From the IMG/VR virus record IMGVR_UViG_3300027833_000204, positions 1 to 25,369 of that record: a stretch of 25,369 bases of DNA; one strand, given 5' to 3'. The DNA is from a virus. Below the pieces are notes generated by a model. It made no database searches. It was not told the origin of the DNA and saw nothing but the letters and a program-made list of their open reading frames with translations. Positions 13,339-23,852 of the stretch are shown one piece after another (position 1 is the stretch's first letter; each line of letters begins with the position of its first letter). The position numbers were made by a program, and so were the translations under genes.

Positions 13339-16300
13339 ATGGTTATTTCAACTCTTATTGGCGTTATTGCTGCGGGTGGTGTTTCGGCATTTAGCTTCGG
13401 GACGGCGGCTTTGGGCTGGGCTTCAGTTGGCTTAAGTATCCTAACAAAGGTCGTTCTTGGTGCTGCACTAAGGGCGCTTATGCCTAAGCCTTCCGTTGGT
13501 GCTAATCGTGGTTATGAAACCACAGCTATTGGTACAGCACTAGATCACCAAGTTATCTACGGTAAGGTTCGTGTTGGTGGCGCTCGTATTTATGATGAAA
13601 CTACAGGTACAAACAACAGCTACCTTCACCGCATCATTGCTGTAGCTGGACATGAGATTGAGTCTTTTGATAAGATTTACATCAACGACTCCTATGTAAA
13701 CTACGCGGACATTGATGCAAATGGTAACATATCTAGTGTAGTTGATCCTGACGGGACAACTTCCACTCGTTACAATGACCACGTTCGTATTAAGTTTCAC
13801 TTGGGTTCCCCTACCCAATCTGCTGACGCCACTCTTGTAAGTGAATCTGCTCACTGGACTAGCGCACACAAGCTCAGTGGTATCGCTTACATGTACATCC
13901 GCATGAAGTTTGATGCTGACGTATTCCCTAATGGTATTCCTGACTTTACGGCTGAAGTTAAGGGTAAGAAGGTCTATGACCCACGTACATCAACAACAGT
14001 ATGGTCAGACAACCCTGCATTGTGCGTAAGGGATTACCTTACTGCAAGCTACGGTATTTCTGAGGCTGTTGCCAACATTGATGACACCCTAGTTACCTCT
14101 GCTGCTAATGTAAGCGACCAGACTAACACAGACGCTGGTACGACACGTTACACCTGTAATGGTGCCTTCACTACAAACTCTACTCCATATGAGATGATTG
14201 AAGCCCTACTGACCTCTATGGACGGTAGCATTTGGTATGCTCAGGGTAAATGGCGTATGAAGCCAGCTTACTGGACAGCACCTGTTCTTGATCTTGATGA
14301 GGATGACCTAAGGTCTTCTTTGAGCGTTTCTACACGACACTCTCGTGCAAGCAACTTCAACACAGTCAAGGGTACATTCCGTGGTTCAGAAAGCAACTGG
14401 CAGACAACAGATTACCCACAGGTTCCTGAGAATACAACAGCTAACGCTAACCCATATCTAGCAGTAGATAACGGTCAAGAGTCAGTAGCTGATGTGGACT
14501 TGACGTTCACTGACAACTCAATTGAAGCTCGTCGTATTGCCAGAATTACTCTGGAACGTAACAGACAGCAACTTACTGTTAGCGGTTCATTTGGTCTAAG
14601 CACTCTCCAGCTTCAAGTTGGGGATAACATCCGCTTGACTAACTCTCGCTTTGGCTGGACCAACAAAGAGTTTGAAGTAGTTGCTTGGAACTTCGGCTTG
14701 CAGGATGACCTTGACCTACAAGTTCAAATGACGCTACGTGAGACCTCTGAGTCTGTCTATGACGAAGTGACCGACAGTGTTGTTTACGAAAGAGACAACA
14801 CAACTCTGGCATCTCCTTTCGCTACAGCAGAACCACAGAGCCTCTCCTCAGCAGCAACTGCCTTTGTAAATGATGATGGTACAACTGTACCCTCTATTAC
14901 CTTTAGCTGGTCTGTCGCTAACCCAAGCCTAGCAGAACTCTTTGAGTTTGAGTGGAAGCTAACTACTGATACAAACTATAATTCCACTGTATTAAAAGAG
15001 ACCTCTTGGACACTTGCCCCTGCTGAAAGCTCTAAGTCTTATGACTACAGAGTTAGGTCAATAAGTCCACTAGGTGTCCGTTCAGCCCTTAAGTATTCTA
15101 CATCAGCAGCGGCTACAGTTGACGACTTGACTGTACCTAATGCTCCGTCAGGGTTGAATGTATCTGGTGGCTATGCAGCTACAACTGTTGAATGGGTTGC
15201 TCCAACTGCAAACACAGACGCTAGTGCAATTAAAGACTTGTTCCAGTACGAAGTTTACCGTGGTACTTCCAGCAACCCAACAACTCTTGTTGGTCGTGTG
15301 GCAGGTACTACCTTTAGTGACATTGGTCTAGCTAACAGCACCACTTATCACTACAGAGTAAAAGCACTAGACTTTACAGGCAACAAGAGTGCCTTCTCTA
15401 GCAACGGTAGCGCAACTACAAACCCTGCACTTACTAACGGTACTGATGGCTCATCTGTGCTTGTTGTTTATGCAACCAATACCTCTGGAAGTAGCCAAAG
15501 CCTTACAGCAGGTAGCAGAGAGTACGTTCAGTATTACGAGTACACGGGCACTACACCTAGCTTACCTGTGTCTGGAACCTTTGTTAAGTTCGTCGGGGCT
15601 GGTGGTGATGATGGCAACTCTATATTCCCTATCTATGCTACAAGTTCCGCTGGTGCTAGTCAGAGCTTTAACCCTTCTGGCAAGACCTTTGTTACGTTCT
15701 TTGAGAGCGCAACTACACCATCTTTACCAGTATCGGGCCAGACTTTCGTTGCATATGTCGGTTCAGATGGCACAGATGGCACAAATGGTACAAATGGCAC
15801 AAATGGTACTAACGGAAGTAATGGTACATCTATATTCCCTGTCTACGCGACAAGTTCCGCTGGTGCTAGTCAGTCGTTTAGCCCAACAGGTAAGACCTTT
15901 GTTACTTTCTATGAGGGACTAACATCACCAAGTTTACCCCTATCGGGACAAACCTTCGTTGCATATGTCGGTTCAGACGGCAGTAATGGAACTAACGGTA
16001 CTAACGGTACTAACGGGACTAATGGTAGTGACGGCGCAGCGGGTTCAAACAATGCCACTGTTTTCTTGTACAACAAGAGCAGTAACACAACAGCACCCTC
16101 TTCGTTTAGTGGTACATTCACTTATACCTTTGCTACAGGTGTGTTGTCTGGCGGTACTTTAAACGGTTGGTCTCAGACGCCACCCGCCTTGTCACAAGGA
16201 CAGAACCTTTTCGTGGCATTAGCCACAGCAACCTCAAACGTCTCAACTGACAGTGTACCTAGCTCAGAGTTTAGCACCCCTGTAATTACAAGCGTAGCAG

Positions 16301-19300
16301 GGACTAACGGTAGCAATGGGACTAACGGGACTAACGGTAGCAATGGGACTAACGGGACTAACGGTAGCAATGGTGCATCTACTGCCATTGTAGACTTGTT
16401 TAGAAAGACTTCTACAGCTTCAGCCCCATCTGACCCAACTGGTACATTTACTTATACGTTTTCTACAGGCGTACTAAGCTCTGGCAATTTAAATGGCTGG
16501 AGTCAAACTGCCCCAACACTAAGTAAAGGTCAGTACCTTTGGGTAATAAAGGCATCGGCTTTCTCTAACACCTCTACAGATTCTATCGCTGCCTCAGAGT
16601 TTAACTCTGCTGCTGTTGTGGGCATAGGCGGCTCTGATGGGACTAACGGAACCAACGGAACTAACGGTAGCAATGGGACTAACGGTAGCAACGGGACTAA
16701 CGGGACTAATGGAGACATCTTTAAGACTATCTACTTATACGATGCCAGTGTAACTCAGCCCTCTGCAATTAGCATAACCAATGGCTTTACTCCTTCTACA
16801 GGTAACGCTTCTAGTACAGGAACTTGGACAACAACAGTGCCTTCAATAGGCTCTGGACAAGTTCTGTGGTTAGCTTCAATGGTTGTTAAGCAGACTGCTG
16901 GTACTGGAAACTATGCAGGTCAAAGTCCAGGATGGGTTCGCATCCAAGCTCAAGGTTATGATGGCACTAACGGTACTAACGGTGCGACTGGCGCACAAGG
17001 TCCAACTGGCTTAATAGACAACCCTTATGGTGCCCTTGCAGCTTATGGCAGCGGCATTCAAAGTAACATAACTTGGGATAGCACTGAACAAGCTATGAAG
17101 CTACAGTCTTCTTCTGACACTAGTATAGGTGCAGCTTTTCCTGCATTTAGAGTAAACCTTACAGCTAATGAGACGCACAAACTTTCCATTAAATACAAGT
17201 CTAATGGAAGCTCTTCTAGTGGCTTTTACGCTCGTGTCTATGAGTACAATGCAGCGTTACCCAGCGGTAAGCTGGCTGTCTCTCACAACGCATATAACTC
17301 TCTCGTACAAGAGGATACTAGCGGTAAAACTAACTGGGAATCAAACGTAAGCGTTAGTACCACTTGGGTAACGTCTGACTACACGTACACTCCAACAGCA
17401 GGGGCTGTATGGGCTTCTATCGTCGTCCTAAACTGGACAGGTATGGGCACTCAACCATTGTTTATTCGTGACCCTGAGAACCAACTGATTGGCTCCTCTG
17501 GACCACAAGGAATCCAAGGAATCCAAGGAAACGCTGGAACAAACGGCACTAATGGTACTAACGGTACTAACGGAAGTAATGGTTCAGATGCTCCTCGTTT
17601 CGCCTCTAGGACTTTATACACAAACCCTGCTGTTGTAACCCCTGCGGATACTACTCCCTCAGCGACAATCACTTGGTCTAGTGGGGCTATCTCTAGCATT
17701 ACTTCTGGTTGGTCGTTAACACCTCCCACACAAGTGGCTAGTGCTTCAGAGAAGGTGTGGACATCTAACTTGTTGTTTGTGGATGTATCCCCTCCGTTCT
17801 CATCTACTTCAGCTACAGGATCAACAGCAATCCAAGGTACATCTTTCTCTGGGCTAGTTAGCTTTACTGGGGGAGACTTTGCTTTAGATGGTGCTACTAT
17901 CACTAACATTGATGGTGGTAATATTACTACAGGTTCTATCGTAGCTGATAAAATTAGTGTTGATGGCCCAATAGACATATCATCAGCAAGCGGGTCTTTA
18001 CTAGCGGGTCGCACAAGTGCTTCCGACTTTGGTACTGATGGCTTCTATATTGGCCGCACAAGCACTGATGGGACAACAGCAGATGGTTTCCAGTTATCTC
18101 ACACCTCTGTTACAGGCACTGATAGTATAGGCGACTCAGCTAATTTAATTAATTCGGGCACGGTTCAGGCTGTTATTCATGATGATACACAAGGTCTTCG
18201 TATTTACGAGCCTGTCTTTTATACCCGCGGTAGTGCGACTGGCGCAGACACTTTGCAAACAACCTCAGGCAACGTTACGCTTGCGGCTGGTGATATTCAT
18301 ACAGTCACTCTGTTCGGAGCTGGTGGTGGTGGTTCAGGCGGTAGTGGTGTTGCTAGAAACGGGGGTGGCACTTCAAATATCGTACAGTTCTTAGGTAACA
18401 CAGGGAACGTTGGCGGCACTACAACAGTCACACTCAACGGAGCTACTGGCTATAACGGAACTCGTAACTACTCGGCCACAGGCGGCGCAGGAGGTGTCGG
18501 TGGAGGTGGTACGCAACCTACTGGGCAAGATGGCGTGCGTTCAGTCTTTGGCTATGGTGGTGCTGGAGGCACAACAACTGGTTCCAATAATGGTGGTTAT
18601 GTCGTAGGTGGCACAGGTGGCGTACCTGTAAGCGGTGCGTACTCTGCTGGTGGAGGTGGCGGCGGTGGCGGTCACATTGATGGTGATGAGAGTTTTGACT
18701 CAATCGGTTTTGGCGGTGGAGGAGGAGACACTGGACAGGAACGCACTGTTACCTACGATCTTACTAATGCCAACAGTGATGGTACTCTTGCTGTAACTAT
18801 TAATCCAGCTGGTAATGGAGGTACCGCTAACGCAGTGTCTAACAACAGTAGTAACAGAAGAGTTCAGGGTGGTACTGGTGGCGCAGGCAGATCAGGACTT
18901 GTTGCAGTCTCAGGGATTCTCGATGGATACGTTGCGAGTACTCTCAGTGACCTCAGTGGTAAAAGCGAACCTTGGTTGGACGGTTCAGCACCTACTAATG
19001 TCAACAATGCGACTTTGAACACAGGCAACAACAATAACACAGTTCTCGCTACCGCTTCCGCGAACGGTGATGGTGTTTGGTTCATTGCCAGCGGTCAAAC
19101 AATCTATCAGGATGGTACTTTTAACATCAATGGTTCTAATTCGTGGATGAAAACGAACGGAGTGAGTGGTAGAGGGAACCAATACCTCTACTCAGCTGCG
19201 ACTTCATTTTCTAACACTCAAGTCAACTTTTATAGTGGGGGCAACACCACTACGCAATTCTTTGTTGAAGGCTATATCGACGCAGGTGGAAACTTTGAAG

Positions 19301-19353
19301 GTAAACGCAGAATCCAAATTGGAGCATATGGGCTATCCGAATGGGGGACTTAA
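13339..19353 (+). CDS. J-like tail tip/receptor-binding protein with FN3, collagen-like linkers and glycine-rich C-terminus
   Basis: The 2004-residue protein starts at ATG 13339. Residues 1-50 are hydrophobic (VISTLIGVIAAGGVSAFSFG, ASVGLSILTKVVLGAALRAL), like lambda gpI fused to J. Residues 55-490 are the J-like hub (GTALDHQVIYGKVRVGGARI; NPALCVRDYLTASYGI; IARITLERNRQQLTVSG; LQVGDNIRLTNSRFGW). Residues about 490-597 and 598-697 are two fibronectin III domains. Residues 704-1610 hold small beta modules separated by six collagen-like Gly-X-Y tracts starting at residues 808, 878, 988, 1098, 1209 and 1388. Residues about 1225-1384 resemble a carbohydrate-binding jelly roll. ATITNIDGGNITTGSIVADK (around 1520) is typical of J C-terminal regions. 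Residues about 1660-1853 are glycine-rich, like gp38-type or Gly_rich_2 adhesin domains, and the last 150 residues are a final beta domain. It would form the trimeric central fibre that recognises the host. Confidence 0.9.
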   Translation: MVISTLIGVIAAGGVSAFSFGTAALGWASVGLSILTKVVLGAALRALMPKPSVGANRGYETTAIGTALDHQVIYGKVRVGGARIYDETTGTNNSYLHRIIAVAGHEIESFDKIYINDSYVNYADIDANGNISSVVDPDGTTSTRYNDHVRIKFHLGSPTQSADATLVSESAHWTSAHKLSGIAYMYIRMKFDADVFPNGIPDFTAEVKGKKVYDPRTSTTVWSDNPALCVRDYLTASYGISEAVANIDDTLVTSAANVSDQTNTDAGTTRYTCNGAFTTNSTPYEMIEALLTSMDGSIWYAQGKWRMKPAYWTAPVLDLDEDDLRSSLSVSTRHSRASNFNTVKGTFRGSESNWQTTDYPQVPENTTANANPYLAVDNGQESVADVDLTFTDNSIEARRIARITLERNRQQLTVSGSFGLSTLQLQVGDNIRLTNSRFGWTNKEFEVVAWNFGLQDDLDLQVQMTLRETSESVYDEVTDSVVYERDNTTLASPFATAEPQSLSSAATAFVNDDGTTVPSITFSWSVANPSLAELFEFEWKLTTDTNYNSTVLKETSWTLAPAESSKSYDYRVRSISPLGVRSALKYSTSAAATVDDLTVPNAPSGLNVSGGYAATTVEWVAPTANTDASAIKDLFQYEVYRGTSSNPTTLVGRVAGTTFSDIGLANSTTYHYRVKALDFTGNKSAFSSNGSATTNPALTNGTDGSSVLVVYATNTSGSSQSLTAGSREYVQYYEYTGTTPSLPVSGTFVKFVGAGGDDGNSIFPIYATSSAGASQSFNPSGKTFVTFFESATTPSLPVSGQTFVAYVGSDGTDGTNGTNGTNGTNGSNGTSIFPVYATSSAGASQSFSPTGKTFVTFYEGLTSPSLPLSGQTFVAYVGSDGSNGTNGTNGTNGTNGSDGAAGSNNATVFLYNKSSNTTAPSSFSGTFTYTFATGVLSGGTLNGWSQTPPALSQGQNLFVALATATSNVSTDSVPSSEFSTPVITSVAGTNGSNGTNGTNGSNGTNGTNGSNGASTAIVDLFRKTSTASAPSDPTGTFTYTFSTGVLSSGNLNGWSQTAPTLSKGQYLWVIKASAFSNTSTDSIAASEFNSAAVVGIGGSDGTNGTNGTNGSNGTNGSNGTNGTNGDIFKTIYLYDASVTQPSAISITNGFTPSTGNASSTGTWTTTVPSIGSGQVLWLASMVVKQTAGTGNYAGQSPGWVRIQAQGYDGTNGTNGATGAQGPTGLIDNPYGALAAYGSGIQSNITWDSTEQAMKLQSSSDTSIGAAFPAFRVNLTANETHKLSIKYKSNGSSSSGFYARVYEYNAALPSGKLAVSHNAYNSLVQEDTSGKTNWESNVSVSTTWVTSDYTYTPTAGAVWASIVVLNWTGMGTQPLFIRDPENQLIGSSGPQGIQGIQGNAGTNGTNGTNGTNGSNGSDAPRFASRTLYTNPAVVTPADTTPSATITWSSGAISSITSGWSLTPPTQVASASEKVWTSNLLFVDVSPPFSSTSATGSTAIQGTSFSGLVSFTGGDFALDGATITNIDGGNITTGSIVADKISVDGPIDISSASGSLLAGRTSASDFGTDGFYIGRTSTDGTTADGFQLSHTSVTGTDSIGDSANLINSGTVQAVIHDDTQGLRIYEPVFYTRGSATGADTLQTTSGNVTLAAGDIHTVTLFGAGGGGSGGSGVARNGGGTSNIVQFLGNTGNVGGTTTVTLNGATGYNGTRNYSATGGAGGVGGGGTQPTGQDGVRSVFGYGGAGGTTTGSNNGGYVVGGTGGVPVSGAYSAGGGGGGGGHIDGDESFDSIGFGGGGGDTGQERTVTYDLTNANSDGTLAVTINPAGNGGTANAVSNNSSNRRVQGGTGGAGRSGLVAVSGILDGYVASTLSDLSGKSEPWLDGSAPTNVNNATLNTGNNNNTVLATASANGDGVWFIASGQTIYQDGTFNINGSNSWMKTNGVSGRGNQYLYSAATSFSNTQVNFYSGGNTTTQFFVEGYIDAGGNFEGKRRIQIGAYGLSEWGT
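15619..15981 (+). repeat. tandem DNA duplication of a 51-residue bead module in the tip gene
   Basis: Copy A (15619-15771) and copy B (15829-15981) lie exactly 210 bp apart. They share long identical stretches, including a 24-bp exact match at 15640-15663 and 15850-15873. Each encodes SIFPxYATSSAGASQSF, then KTFVTF, PSLP and SGQTFVAYVGSDG, and is followed by a collagen-like tract. A more distant third copy precedes them at about 15448-15615 (SVLVVYATNTSG onward). The near identity at DNA level points to a recent duplication or recombination between linkers. Confidence 0.8.
15760..17583 (+). repeat. six collagen-like Gly-Thr/Ser-Asn tracts (9-bp period) in the tip gene
   Basis: Tracts of Gly-X-Y lie at 15760-15828, 15970-16044, 16300-16374, 16630-16713, 16963-17010 and 17500-17583. 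Most units are GTN or GSN, encoded by GGNACNAAY and GGNAGYAAY codons, giving a DNA period of 9 bp. The fifth and sixth tracts also contain GAQGPTG and GPQGIQGIQG, the commoner phage collagen style. Such tracts form rigid triple helices in trimeric fibres. The repetitive DNA is prone to slippage and recombination, which would change the number of beads and linkers. Confidence 0.9.
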
Positions 19354-19738: not shown

Positions 19739-20573
19739 AAAAGAAAAGCCCTACATTAACTTTCACACAAGCGAGGAGATGCTTGACATAATACCTCACC
19801 CAATTCCTGCTGCCAAGGCAATGCCTAAATGGTTCAGGAAGTTAAAGCCAGTTGCAGAGGGGTCTCATAAGAATGATGCAGGTACAGTCAAACGTTGTAT
19901 GCCTGTTCTTGATGCAGTCTCACAAGGATACATCATCCCCCTCTGGGCAGACCTCCATGTGACTGTAAAGAAATTAACCAACTTCATGGATGCAGACGGG
20001 AAAGTAATTCATCAAGAGATGCACCCAAACCCTGACTCACTTATCGGGACAGAAACGTCTAACACTAAAGAGACGATAGTAGGGCATGAACCTAGTACTG
20101 AATCTGGTGTTCTGATGTCCTTTCCAGAGTTTGACATGGGGATAGGTGATCTCCTTGGCACTCACGGTTGGCAACAGGTAGGTAACGCATGTGATTTAAA
20201 GAAGTTTAAGTTGGGTAAAGTCTTACTTAAGTTTACTAACCCTTGGGTTATTGAAACACCCGCTGGTTGGTCAGTTAAGTTTTCTAACCCCTCTAACGAC
20301 TGGTCTAATGATATTAGCTTGATAGAAGGAGTGGTAGACACTGATGAGTATTATAACACCGTCAACTTTCCCTTTGTCTGGACAGGCAGTGAAGAGGGAG
20401 AGTGGACTATACCAAGGGGAACCCCTCTTGTTCACATTGTACCCTTTAAACGTGAAAAGTTAGAATTAAACGTAGGTGTTAGGGATGAAGGTAAGGTTAA
20501 CCAAGTTAACTTAAAGCTACAAAGTAAATTCTATGATAAGTACAAAGAGTTCTTCTGGAAGAATAAGAAATAA
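19725..20573 (+). CDS. conserved phage protein of unknown function
   Basis: Two starts fit: TTG 19719 and GTG 19725; AAGGA at 19710-19714 gives the better spacing to GTG (282 aa). The N-terminal part reads KPYINFHTSEEMLDIIPHPI followed by PAAKAMPKWFRKLKP and then TVKRCMPVLDAVSQGYIIPL WADL (given in two parts). I recall this 'P.w......T.K.CmP..DA...GYIIPLWADL' pattern from proteins of marine phages whose function is unknown. The C-terminal half is beta-rich (GKVLLKFTNPWVIETPAGWS, PFVWTGSEEGEWTIPRGTPL) and could be a cupin-like or jelly-roll domain. There is no signal peptide, membrane segment or catalytic motif that I can identify. Its place between tip/fibre genes and the endolysin gives no clear job. 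Confidence 0.7.
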   Translation: MIWNRKEKPYINFHTSEEMLDIIPHPIPAAKAMPKWFRKLKPVAEGSHKNDAGTVKRCMPVLDAVSQGYIIPLWADLHVTVKKLTNFMDADGKVIHQEMHPNPDSLIGTETSNTKETIVGHEPSTESGVLMSFPEFDMGIGDLLGTHGWQQVGNACDLKKFKLGKVLLKFTNPWVIETPAGWSVKFSNPSNDWSNDISLIEGVVDTDEYYNTVNFPFVWTGSEEGEWTIPRGTPLVHIVPFKREKLELNVGVRDEGKVNQVNLKLQSKFYDKYKEFFWKNKK

Positions 20574-20583
20574 AGGATATGTT

Positions 20584-20961
20584 ATGTCGTATAAACTAGG
20601 AACACGTAGTCTACAGAACCTGTCAGGTGTACACCCTGATATGGTCGCTGTAGTTAAGAGAGCAATCGAGATCACTGGAGTTGACTTCACAGTCATCGAA
20701 GGTATCCGTAACATTAACCGTCAGCGTGAACTGCTTAAGGCTGGTAAGTCTACTACAATGAACTCACGACACATTACAGGTCATGCTGTGGATATGGTCC
20801 CTTGGCCTGTAGACTGGGAGGACTTAGAACGCTTTGAGCAAATGGCTGAAGCTATGAAGACAGCAGCAGATGAGCTTGACATTTCCATCGTATGGGGTGG
20901 TGACTGGAAGAGTTTTTATGATGCTCCCCACTTCGAATTAAACCGTAAAGAGTACCCATGA
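20584..20961 (+). CDS. endolysin, M15-family L-alanyl-D-glutamate peptidase
   Basis: ATG 20584, with AAAGGA 6 nt upstream, gives 125 residues; the longer frame from 20533 overlaps the previous gene. The protein is a single M15 (VanY/Peptidase_M15_4-like) domain: SLQNLSGVHPDMVAVVKRAI, FTVIEGIRNINRQRELL, SRHITGHAVDMVPW and DAPHFEL. His63, Asp70 and His116 fit the zinc ligands and Asp113 the catalytic acid, in the same order as T5 endolysin. It cuts the peptide stem of peptidoglycan at the end of infection. No signal peptide is present, so a holin is needed, and a candidate holin gene lies downstream at 23502. Confidence 0.9.
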   Translation: MSYKLGTRSLQNLSGVHPDMVAVVKRAIEITGVDFTVIEGIRNINRQRELLKAGKSTTMNSRHITGHAVDMVPWPVDWEDLERFEQMAEAMKTAADELDISIVWGGDWKSFYDAPHFELNRKEYP

Positions 20962-20962
20962 G

Positions 20963-21226
20963 ATGGTTAAGGAAAAGGCTTTGGAGCCTGTAAATAACAA
21001 CAACTTATCTATAGGTCTTATATTCGGACTTGTAACTCAGGGTGCAGCTATAGTCTGGACTGTATCTATGATGATGTCGGATATTGAAGATAACCGTGAA
21101 GACATCATAAAGAACCAACTTAACATACAGAGACTAAATTTAGCCGTACAAACTCAAGCTATAAGCAACGCTAGAATAGACGAAAACATCAAAGCAATCA
21201 GAGATATTATGGAGCGTAGTCCTTGA
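20963..21226 (+). CDS. small membrane protein with one TM helix and coiled coil (i-spanin or holin-like)
   Basis: The 87-residue protein starts at ATG 20963, 1 bp after the endolysin stop. A short polar N-terminus is followed by one hydrophobic helix (residues about 16-38, IGLIFGLVTQGAAIVWTVSM) and then a charged helical stretch (MSDIEDNREDIIKNQLNIQR LNLAV, given in two parts) that ends IRDIMERSP. N-in topology with a periplasmic coiled coil suits an inner-membrane spanin, and the next gene encodes a small lipoprotein that overlaps it by 4 bp, as Rz and Rz1 genes do. A small holin is the alternative. No strong ribosome site is seen, suggesting coupling to the endolysin gene. Confidence 0.62.
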   Translation: MVKEKALEPVNNNNLSIGLIFGLVTQGAAIVWTVSMMMSDIEDNREDIIKNQLNIQRLNLAVQTQAISNARIDENIKAIRDIMERSP

Positions 21227-21435
21227 GATTAATACCCGTACTAATTCTACTCGCTGGATGTTCTACTACGACGATAAGTTACCCGTCCGTTTGTACTAAC
21301 AATGAACCTAAATGTCAGAGAAACTTAGATGCACAAACCCTTGCTATCCTCGGAGAAAAAGAAGCTGCTGTCCAACTTATGTGTATGGACAGTGGCCTTG
21401 CAGATGTCATTGGTGAGCAGTGCGTTAGCCAATGA
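21223..21435 (+). CDS. small lipoprotein, candidate o-spanin (TTG start)
   Basis: The start is TTG 21223, overlapping the preceding TGA stop (TTGA) with GGAG 8 nt upstream. The 70-residue protein opens MRLIPVLILLAGCSTTT, a short lipoprotein signal peptide with lipobox LAGC, so Cys13 would be lipidated and the mature part, 58 residues, would be held in the outer membrane. The mature part contains three more cysteines (CTNNEPKC near the start, MCMDSG and EQCVSQ later) and a helix (AQTLAILGEKEAAVQLM). A small outer-membrane lipoprotein just after a TM/coiled-coil gene is the standard two-component spanin layout. It is not Pro-rich as Rz1 is, so the call is moderate. Its last 107 nt overlap the next gene in another frame. 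Confidence 0.65.
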   Translation: MRLIPVLILLAGCSTTTISYPSVCTNNEPKCQRNLDAQTLAILGEKEAAVQLMCMDSGLADVIGEQCVSQ

Positions 21436-22063
21436 CATAGTAGGTGATCTAAACACGAACATAGCTGACTCTACTGTAGACAGTAATAACGCCAGTACAA
21501 CAAACAACTACAACGCTACGGGTGCGGGTTCTGCTGCACCTGTCATGTCTAGTGTTGCTCCTACTATGATGGGTGGAGGTGGAGGTGACTCTTGCCTTAT
21601 ACCAAACACCAAGGGAATACAGCTTAGTATCATAGGCATCTCTAAGGGTGGTATGGAGCAAGACAGTGAGTGCAACAGACGTAAGGACGCAAGGTTACTA
21701 GGCGCTCCTCAAAACTTAGGTGGCTTAGGCTTGCAAGTCTCTGCCATTAGTGTTATGTGTTCTAACCCTGTAGTAGCTAAGAGCATGGCCCTGAGTAACA
21801 CACCATGTCCAATATCGGATGTGGTTACAGGTAAACTACTAATAGGTCGTGAAGCATTTATTAAGATGAGGCAAGACCCTGATATTTACATTGTAGGGTA
21901 TCTACAGGACAAGAGATTCTGGGACACCCTTCTTATGATAGGAAAGAAGTTACCAGATGTACCACAAGAAACTAATACCCCTAGCCTTTCTGTTAGGTTC
22001 CGCAACAACAGCAACAGCAAACCAGTCGATACAAGACCTGCAATCAGCAGCGGAAGCAATTAG
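21329..22063 (+). CDS. secreted protein of unknown function with four conserved-looking cysteines
   Basis: ATG 21329 lies inside the preceding lipoprotein gene; 107 nt are shared in a different frame. The 244-residue product begins with a Sec signal peptide (KKKLLSNLCVWTVALQ, cleavage likely after SSALA), so it would be periplasmic or exported. A Ser/Thr/Asn/Gly-rich linker (residues 40-85, ending MMGGGGGDSC) precedes a compact domain with Cys89, Cys115, Cys144 and Cys160, the last in NTPCPISDV. I recall a similar 'C...R..AR.L......a....C..p.v..am....PCP' pattern in marine phage proteins without known function. Disulphide bonding is likely. Its end (VPQETNTPSLSVRFRNNSNS) overlaps the next gene's signal peptide. 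Confidence 0.68.
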   Translation: MHKPLLSSEKKKLLSNLCVWTVALQMSLVSSALANDIVGDLNTNIADSTVDSNNASTTNNYNATGAGSAAPVMSSVAPTMMGGGGGDSCLIPNTKGIQLSIIGISKGGMEQDSECNRRKDARLLGAPQNLGGLGLQVSAISVMCSNPVVAKSMALSNTPCPISDVVTGKLLIGREAFIKMRQDPDIYIVGYLQDKRFWDTLLMIGKKLPDVPQETNTPSLSVRFRNNSNSKPVDTRPAISSGSN

Positions 22064-22712
22064 AACTCAAGTAACAACAGCACTGAACTTGTCGTTTAAG
22101 GGTTACAAGCGTTCCAACTCAGCCCAAATAGTAGAAGACCAAGCAATTCAACAGGGTGGCCTTACTCAAGAGCAGGTAGACAAGTACAACAATGCCCTGA
22201 CTGCGGTTAAGACAAGTGTGTACAAGGACGCCTCTGAGGTTCTGTACGACGAGCACATCGTTGCTATGGACAACCTGCACACATCTATTGACCTGCTAGT
22301 AGATGCAGCCTCTGCCCTTAGTGAAGTGGGTGTAGTGGCTGATATGGCTGCTGATGCTACAACGACACCAGCACAAGAGAAACTACAAGAGTACGTTACT
22401 ATTAACGATATGTCCCTTACAGAAGAAAAGGTTGAGAACTTTAACAACTCACTTGTAGTGGTTGAGACCTACGCACAACAGGCGGGTGCTTTCCTCGCAG
22501 GGTCTAGTAGCAGTGAAGTTACTGGTGCTATTGATAACTACGCAGCTAACAATGGTGTCGCAGTTAGTAGTTACACGGCTGTGAGTTATACTCAATCTAT
22601 GGACCAATTTATAATTCAGTTTGAAGCTGGTTCCGTGACTATTTCTGGGTACACTGGTTCCAACCTAGTCACAGCAGAAGAACTATACAAAGAATTGTCT
22701 GCTTACAACTAA
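21957..22712 (+). CDS. secreted helical protein of unknown function
   Basis: ATG 21957 lies inside the preceding gene and follows AGGAAAGAAG; again 107 nt are shared out of frame. The 251-residue product starts with a clear signal peptide (MYHKKLIPLAFLLGSATTATA, likely cut before NQSIQ). The mature part is mostly helical and acidic: IQDLQSAAEAIRTQV, TQEQVDKYNNALTAVKTSVY, AMDNLHTSIDLLVDAASALS, VENFNNSLVVVETYAQQAGA. A small beta domain closes it (DQFIIQFEAGSVTISGYTGS). There are no cysteines. A periplasmic role around lysis or superinfection control is possible from context only; I recognise no family. Confidence 0.66.
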   Translation: MYHKKLIPLAFLLGSATTATANQSIQDLQSAAEAIRTQVTTALNLSFKGYKRSNSAQIVEDQAIQQGGLTQEQVDKYNNALTAVKTSVYKDASEVLYDEHIVAMDNLHTSIDLLVDAASALSEVGVVADMAADATTTPAQEKLQEYVTINDMSLTEEKVENFNNSLVVVETYAQQAGAFLAGSSSSEVTGAIDNYAANNGVAVSSYTAVSYTQSMDQFIIQFEAGSVTISGYTGSNLVTAEELYKELSAYN

Positions 22713-22722
22713 AGGACTAACA

Positions 22723-23136
22723 ATGCAAGACTTAGAGCTAACCACAGGTGGCTACACATTTAAAGCCGCACACTTACTTTTCGCTGCACCTGTAGTGTCT
22801 GCCTTAGCTACTGGCATCTACTTTTCGTATGATGTAGTGAACAGGTTCTATGCTGTTGAGGAAGCCTTCTTTGAGGTAACGGACACTAACTCAAGAGTAC
22901 AGGCACTAGAGCAGACCGTGCTAGATAATGATGTGCGAGGCTTAAACAGTAAGTTGACACAATTAAGTACACAGATGACTACGCTGCTAGAAAGACAGCA
23001 AACCTTACTAGAGTTACGCAGTAAGGTAGAACGTGCTGAGTTAATCACTGATGGCATAGACGACAAGTTGGAAGCACTACAAGACGATATAAACTCCACT
23101 TGGGATGCTATAGACGAACTTGGCAAGCCCCTATAG
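22723..23136 (+). CDS. membrane-anchored coiled-coil protein (alternative i-spanin / lysis accessory)
   Basis: ATG 22723 follows TAAAGGACTAAC. The 137-residue protein has a hydrophobic helix near the N-terminus (residues about 17-38, HLLFAAPVVSALATGIYFSY) and then a long heptad-patterned helix to the end (SRVQALEQTVLDNDVRGLNS, LTQLSTQMTTLLERQQTLLE, DDKLEALQDDINSTWDAIDE). A single N-terminal anchor followed by a long acidic coiled coil fits an Rz-like inner-membrane spanin at least as well as the 87-residue protein at 20963, though no lipoprotein gene follows it. It might also be a structural membrane-associated protein. The ribosome site of the next gene overlaps its stop. Confidence 0.66.
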   Translation: MQDLELTTGGYTFKAAHLLFAAPVVSALATGIYFSYDVVNRFYAVEEAFFEVTDTNSRVQALEQTVLDNDVRGLNSKLTQLSTQMTTLLERQQTLLELRSKVERAELITDGIDDKLEALQDDINSTWDAIDELGKPL

Positions 23137-23145
23137 GAGATATAA

Positions 23146-23505
23146 ATGACAAAGCGGATACCTACCTTATTTGAAGATGTAGATACAGACAACAGTGGTA
23201 CGATTGATAAGTCTGAGTGGGATGCACTTGAGTTAGAGGATCGTCGCCGCAGACTGGAGGACGAAGATGCACACCGTGACCAAACTCGTAAGATGGCTTG
23301 GTTTTCTTTATGGGGTATGTTGCTATATCCTTTCGCAGTTGTACTTACTGGCATTATGGGTCTGGACAGTGCTTCTGCCATTATCGGTAGTATGGCTTCC
23401 ATTTACTTTGTTAGTGTTGCTGGGGTCGTGTCCGTTTTCATGGGAGTAACTAATCTAGCTAAGAGCGCAGTTAAAAAGAAACCACAGGAGGTTGATAACA
23501 GATGA
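23146..23505 (+). CDS. EF-hand membrane protein with two TM helices (holin-like)
   Basis: ATG 23146 follows TAGGAGATATAA. Residues 13-24 read DTDNSGTIDKSE, a full EF-hand calcium loop with Asp13, Asp15, Ser17, Thr19 (backbone), Asp21 and Glu24 at the expected positions, flanked by RIPTLFEDV and WDALELEDRR. A very charged stretch follows (EDRRRRLEDEDAHRDQTRKM), then two hydrophobic helices (about 51-73, AWFSLWGMLLYPFAVVLTGI; and 76-101, SIYFVSVAGVVSVFMGV), and a basic tail. This pairing suggests a calcium-responsive membrane protein, perhaps an antiholin or holin partner, because its stop overlaps the start of the three-helix holin gene. Only one EF-hand is present; these usually work in pairs, so dimerisation may be needed. 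Confidence 0.75.
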   Translation: MTKRIPTLFEDVDTDNSGTIDKSEWDALELEDRRRRLEDEDAHRDQTRKMAWFSLWGMLLYPFAVVLTGIMGLDSASAIIGSMASIYFVSVAGVVSVFMGVTNLAKSAVKKKPQEVDNR

Positions 23506-23852
23506 TAGGACAATTATTAGGTGCAGTAGGAAATCTTGCCAGCACTTACTTAGAGGGTAAGGTAGCGGTACAGAAGGCTAACGCTGAGATTAAAGTCAAG
23601 CAAGCTACAGGTGAGATTGACTGGGACATTGAGGCTATCAAGGCTACACAGAATAGCTGGAAAGATGAGTGGATTACTCTACTTTTCAGTATCCCCCTGA
23701 TATTAGCCTTCTGTGGTGAATGGGGAAACCAGATAGTACAAGCAGGTTTTACCTCACTGGAGACCATGCCAACTTGGTATCAGTATTCCCTCGGAGGTAT
23801 TGTAAGTGCCAGCATAGGGATGAGATCAGTATCGAAGTTCTTCGGTAAGTAA
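23502..23852 (+). CDS. holin, three-helix GTA-type family
   Basis: ATG 23502 overlaps the previous stop (ATGA) behind AGGAGG. The 116-residue protein has an amphipathic N-terminus (GQLLGAVGNLASTYLEGKVA), a Lys/Ala/Gln helix (VQKANAEIKVKQATGEIDWD), then KDEWITLLFSIPLILAFCGE as a first clear membrane helix, a loop with ETMPTWYQYSLG, and a final helix (GGIVSASIGMRSVSKFFGK). 'W.DEwi.ll..iPl...F......' followed by 'P.wy...lg....s..G.r' is the pattern of the Holin_3TM family first described in gene transfer agents. It would open the inner membrane to release the M15 endolysin. The strong terminator follows 19 bp after the stop, so this is the last gene of the late operon. Confidence 0.78.
   Translation: MIGQLLGAVGNLASTYLEGKVAVQKANAEIKVKQATGEIDWDIEAIKATQNSWKDEWITLLFSIPLILAFCGEWGNQIVQAGFTSLETMPTWYQYSLGGIVSASIGMRSVSKFFGK

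Follow-up and report, generated by a model that had tools for sequence, protein, structure and literature searches.

The timing of phage lysis is set by holins, and the cue on which they act is a long-standing open question. Several described systems resemble parts of the protein considered here (X), which begins with a canonical EF-hand loop, continues in a linker that is charged and helical, and ends in a pair of membrane helices. The two-TM (class II-type) holins, such as the pinholin S21 of phage 21, share with X the small hairpin, a likely N-in/C-in topology and a lysis cassette with endolysin and spanins. Nevertheless, no known member of this class has an EF-hand, there is no sequence match to X, and X is a candidate holin. 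GTA_holin_3TM (PF11351, DUF3154) and phrog_2524 occur in the same cassette as X, often adjacent to it, and are membrane hairpins of similar size, but they carry a long N-terminal amphipathic part and lack the EF-hand; hhalign of X against phrog_2524 members gave a probability of 33.8%, over 32 columns only. Phage_holin_3_6 (PF07332, Holin-X), also devoid of an EF-hand, matches 13 of 71 X members weakly (best E=9.4e-05, the protein of the window not among these), and such matches are too weak and too few to file X there. Phages CRP-13, CRP-6 and HMO-2011 contain phrog_2524 and lack X; in the first two, the place of X immediately before phrog_2524 is taken by a TM hairpin of phrog_10198, yet this hairpin has no EF-hand and no sequence similarity to X was seen. 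Among calcium-binding proteins, the EF-hand sensors (calmodulin loops, bacterial EfhP) share the canonical 12-residue loop, whereas the loop of X is unpaired and joined to a membrane hairpin, and its gene lies in a phage lysis cassette. LysGH15 is a phage endolysin with an EF-hand-like Ca2+ site, according to a title cited in PMC11915829, but it is a soluble enzyme and X a membrane protein. Papers naming both EF-hand and holin, screened mainly by title, yielded no description of an EF-hand holin, in agreement with the preliminary description of this DNA, to which no characterised phage lysis protein of this build was known.

The window, namely the whole stretch of 25,369 nucleotides analyzed here (IMG/VR record IMGVR_UViG_3300027833_000204), contains a gene block at 20533-23852, arranged as endolysin, TM-coil protein, lipoprotein, secreted helical protein, TM-coil protein, X and phrog_2524. 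Its features, with those of X itself, are the following:

20533..20961, + strand: M15-family endolysin (Peptidase_M15_4 E=1.9e-12; phrog_465 endolysin E=1.5e-63)
20963..21226, + strand: small TM plus coil protein (N-terminal TM 16-34), putatively i-spanin-like from its position and build
21223..21435, + strand: small lipoprotein with an LLAGC lipobox in its sequence, putatively o-spanin-like
22723..23136, + strand: N-terminal TM plus coiled-coil protein, upstream partner of X (cluster 20; homologue in CRP-207)
23146..23505, + strand: EF-hand/TM-hairpin protein X, an ORF of 119 aa (family of 557 loci)
23182..23217, + strand: EF-hand loop of X, residues 13-24, DTDNSGTIDKSE (Pfam EF-hand_5 E=2.2e-05; kept in 546/548 complete relatives)
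23218..23292, + strand: charged linker of X (in the AlphaFold2 model, part of one continuous helix, residues 22-70, into TM1)
23293..23355, + strand: TM helix 1 of X, ~residues 50-70 (hydropathy; AlphaFold2 model)
23395..23451, + strand: TM helix 2 of X, ~residues 84-102 (hydropathy; model helix 84-110)
23502..23852, + strand: phrog_2524 membrane protein, holin-like, DUF3154-type (phrog_2524 E=9.9e-33; relatives)

The preliminary description had read an EF-hand loop, a charged linker and two TM helices in this ORF, and all of them are present, followed by a Lys-rich C-terminus after TM helix 2. The gene starts with an ATG, with GGAG ~8 nt upstream, and its stop TGA (23503-23505) shares four nucleotides, ATGA, with the start ATG of the next gene (23502-23504), as had also been described. 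The naming of that next gene as the holin needs correction: the family to which it belongs, phrog_2524, is annotated 'unknown function', while a Vibrio phage copy of it is annotated DUF3154, and a holin function is plausible. The family of the upstream partner is found mostly at position -1 of X. Terminator and promoter scans returned nothing above chance level.

Three further observations concern the window. The partly overlapping ORFs at 21223-21435 and 21329-22063 both match the same zone of phrog_20531, which suggests a duplicated cysteine-containing domain in the lipoprotein and the secreted protein. The product of CRP-207 gp73 (L004:3292-3873), annotated as 'putative lysozyme', is actually a homologue of the TM plus coiled-coil protein at 22723-23136, such that the annotation looks wrong. 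A tail protein of 2004 aa with long collagen-like GTNGTNG repeats is encoded at 13339-19353.

The loop DTDNSGTIDKSE (D13 to E24) is a full canonical EF-hand loop, with D1, D3, S5, G6, I8 and E12, and thus has the pattern of the EF-hand superfamily (D1, D/N/S at positions 3 and 5, G6, a hydrophobic residue at 8, E12). Its match to EF-hand_5 scores 24.1 bits, slightly below the curated cut-off of 25.9 bits, as can be expected of a lone short loop with a short E helix; an HMM of the X family matches calmodulin EF-hands at ~1e-9. An AlphaFold2 model of X, generated with 67 relatives (mean pLDDT 74.6), shows a short helix at residues 8-12, the loop, a long helix at 22-70 that enters TM1, and a helix at 84-110. 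In this model, the exit helix of the EF-hand thus runs into TM1 without a break. The candidates for the E and F helices flanking the loop are helix 8-12 and the helix from residue 22, in the N-terminal part where pLDDT is 60-68. The linker lengths in the family (22, 24, 25 and 29 residues) were considered as an argument from helical register, which was dropped since the periodicity was not clean.

Several different queries were run against viral contigs and against a species-level genome collection, each of which retrieved tens to hundreds of relatives of X, and cultured phages supplied more. The resulting 557 members derive from viral contigs, phages and MAGs, and they belong to unrelated phages of both freshwater and marine origin. 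The loop is almost universal among them: 546 have it in strict form, eight are cut by contig ends, one (L098) has an ambiguous base at D1 and two are loop-less, which amounts to 546 of the 548 complete, unambiguous relatives. Lack of conservation in relatives, which the preliminary description had named as evidence against its reading, is thus not what was found, and a chance EF-hand motif is ruled out. Retrieval bias could also be dismissed as the source of this conservation, since 79 of 80 matches to an EF-less query comprising only the hairpin still had the loop.

Position-wise analysis of 98 representatives under 90% identity shows constraint at the chelating positions 1, 3, 5 and 12, at Gly6 and at the hydrophobic position 8, with positions 3, 5 and 8 limited to chelating or hydrophobic residues, while positions 2, 7, 10 and 11 vary freely. 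In this set, the lack of variation at positions 1 and 6 is imposed by the search pattern, and the unbiased figure is the count over complete relatives given above. D1, G6 and E12 are each encoded by several synonymous codons. At the level of sequence, this pattern is a signature of selection for metal chelation. Position 12 is E without exception, even though the pattern allowed D or E, and E instead of D at this position of an EF-hand favours Ca2+ over Mg2+. X would very likely bind Ca2+, while lone EF-hand loops often do so weakly. The only two loop-less members, L060:2562-2852 and L500:2860-3177, provide natural comparison cases: the first has lost the loop by a 27-bp in-frame deletion and is otherwise nearly identical to L036, from which the deletion appears to be recent or an assembly artefact, and in the second the first half of the loop has been replaced.

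Sequence and structure searches do not place X in a described holin family. No named family in Pfam, PHROG or NCBIfam scans covers X beyond its EF-hand, the X family matched no lysis family of PHROG, and no described holin family gave a convincing match at the sequence level. The model found no match among solved structures and one significant match among viral structures, the unnamed protein A0A516M8G9, with no holin. X is filed as holin-type, as a candidate holin, by position and build, being small, 119 aa in length and predicted to lie in the inner membrane with two TM helices.

Gene context provides the main evidence for its role. Among 395 well-flanked loci, in which X has 1.2 kb or more of sequence to its left and right, lysis genes are found on the same strand within 2.5 kb in 223, in line with the lysis linkage proposed by the preliminary description. 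These 223 comprise 68 loci with Rz/Rz1/endolysin, 58 with u-spanin/endolysin, 54 with phrog_2524/endolysin, 27 with GTA_holin_3TM/endolysin and 16 with endolysin only; the remainder are 81 T4-like loci (gp51 or tape measure), one with phrog_2524 only and 90 outside the classes of the query set. In loci of the type of the freshwater Limnohabitans phage DC31, X is followed by Rz, an Rz1 lipoprotein gene embedded in Rz in another frame, and an M15_3, M15_4 or GH108 endolysin (68 of 79 assessable loci), so that X takes the holin position of the classic cassette. An endolysin lies within 1.5 kb of X in all 29 fully flanked loci of the CRP-1 type, usually together with a u-spanin-like gene. The order is X, endolysin, u-spanin-like gene in the roseophages CRP-1 and CRP-9, where the CRP-9 gene matches an Rz-like spanin family, and X, spanin, endolysin in CRP-345. 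The family is thus encoded with endolysin and spanins, as expected for a holin, and the association of X with lysis is well supported.

A second holin-like gene accompanies X in approximately 81 loci (54 with phrog_2524 and 27 with GTA_holin_3TM), and many cassettes also encode single-TM proteins close to X. Cultured phages offer a different picture, in that seven of the eight that bear X lack PF11351, CRP-810 being the only one with it, and phrog_2524 occurs in none of the eight, the single weak match in HTVC008M being X itself. A hydropathy scan of the CRP-1 CDS under 900 nt found no two-TM hairpin besides X; single-TM proteins remain there as other candidates. In the T4-like pelagiphages and methylophages (HTVC008M, Melnitz), the neighbours of X are gp51 on one side and the tape-measure gene on the other. 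For Melnitz, no holin has been reported and an outer-membrane curli pore was proposed to act like a pinholin (PMC9004378); X, which is CDS 108 of the Melnitz-3 record and is not named in the published text, offers an inner-membrane holin candidate for this phage.

The charge distribution bears on topology. Across the 98 representatives, the C-terminal tail has a mean of 3.1 K/R versus 0.7 D/E and the inter-helix loop is slightly acidic, which suggests that both ends of X are in the cytoplasm, and thus that the EF-hand is probably cytoplasmic. Cytosolic free Ca2+ is low in healthy bacteria, and the site would therefore fill only once the membrane leaks. The rationale of the preliminary description, that seawater is rich in calcium, is weakened by this placement and by DC31 and its relatives, freshwater phages that keep the loop; a sensor specific to seawater is disfavoured by these phages, which fit any habitat in which Ca2+ is far higher outside than inside the cell.

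Taken at its broadest, a role for X as a lysis membrane protein is likely. The chances are about even that it is a so far overlooked lysis protein of the holin type, whose Ca2+-binding domain would probably be cytoplasmic, and that it is the holin proper falls slightly short of that. Gating by Ca2+ is possible though doubtful, and would suggest a feed-forward trigger. X would build up in the inner membrane with its EF-hand empty while cytosolic Ca2+ is low, until X itself, or the adjacent phrog_2524 or GTA-type holin, causes the membrane to start leaking or depolarising. Ca2+ would then enter the cytoplasm and fill the loop, the filled loop may stiffen, and the lone EF-hands of separate X molecules may pair, whereby X would assemble in one step into a lesion, and the endolysin would be released or activated by it. 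It is a speculative and somewhat unlikely extension that such Ca2+-gated holins are widespread and unannotated in marine and freshwater phages, include the missing holin of the T4-like SAR11/OM43 phages, and use Ca2+ entry at the first leak as a positive-feedback trigger of lysis.

The coexistence of X with a second holin-like protein, in the window and in 54 similar loci, speaks against X as the holin, and the presence of the Pfam GTA holin in CRP-810-type loci means that X could be a regulator there. X may accordingly be an antiholin or holin regulator that restrains the true holin (phrog_2524, or GTA_holin_3TM in CRP-810) until Ca2+ binds, a role that the 4-nt overlap in the window and a cytoplasmic sensor domain would suit. 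This alternative is nonetheless unlikely, in view of the seven cultured phages that have neither PF11351 nor phrog_2524 as a partner, and of the holin position of X in the X-Rz/Rz1-endolysin cassettes. The lysis regulator or antiholin of the preliminary description thus stands as far as the linkage to lysis is concerned, whereas the closest role is that of holin or holin partner, considering the cassettes and the only hairpin found in CRP-1. It also counts against a holin that the structural searches gave no significant match to one.

In the T4-like phages X does not lie beside lysis genes, and the gp51/tape-measure context, seen in 81 well-flanked loci, could point to a tail-associated virion protein that inserts into the host membrane at DNA entry with Ca2+ as a cue; in at least four other contexts, X is found among endolysin and spanin genes and not near tail genes, which makes this improbable. 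As a small membrane protein that carries a sensor domain, X might also block superinfection or manage host Ca2+ instead of acting in lysis, but its recurrence in late lysis cassettes renders this very improbable, and the superinfection sensor proposed earlier found no specific support. The EF-hand itself may have only a structural role, stabilising the N-terminus by bound Ca2+ or Mg2+, and sense nothing. A periplasmic N-terminus would mean a permanently full site, and the loop is kept in freshwater and marine phages alike; still, this is rather unlikely, as the positive-inside charge suggests an N-in orientation and the exceptionless E12 suits a Ca2+-specific site.

If the holin reading is true, calcium may help trigger the burst of the host. 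A holin-type family with a nearly universal Ca2+ site, abundant in phages of major aquatic bacteria, would make one lysis trigger directly testable by point mutation of D1 or E12.

Two additional membrane proteins were observed in these cassettes. A second two-TM hairpin of 80 aa, with no family match, is encoded between X and Rz at L346:4330-4569, and the two could possibly form a holin/antiholin pair. A family of ~153-aa proteins, which have one TM at the C-terminus (MDPVTIISGATVAFNALKKG...), adjoins the lysis genes of CRP-1, DC31, CRP-6 and HMO-2011 (copies at L269:3254-3715, L267:3514-3996, L087:3316-3792 and L088:3310-3765); the CRP-1 copy belongs to phrog_32327, and the family is possibly another lysis membrane protein.
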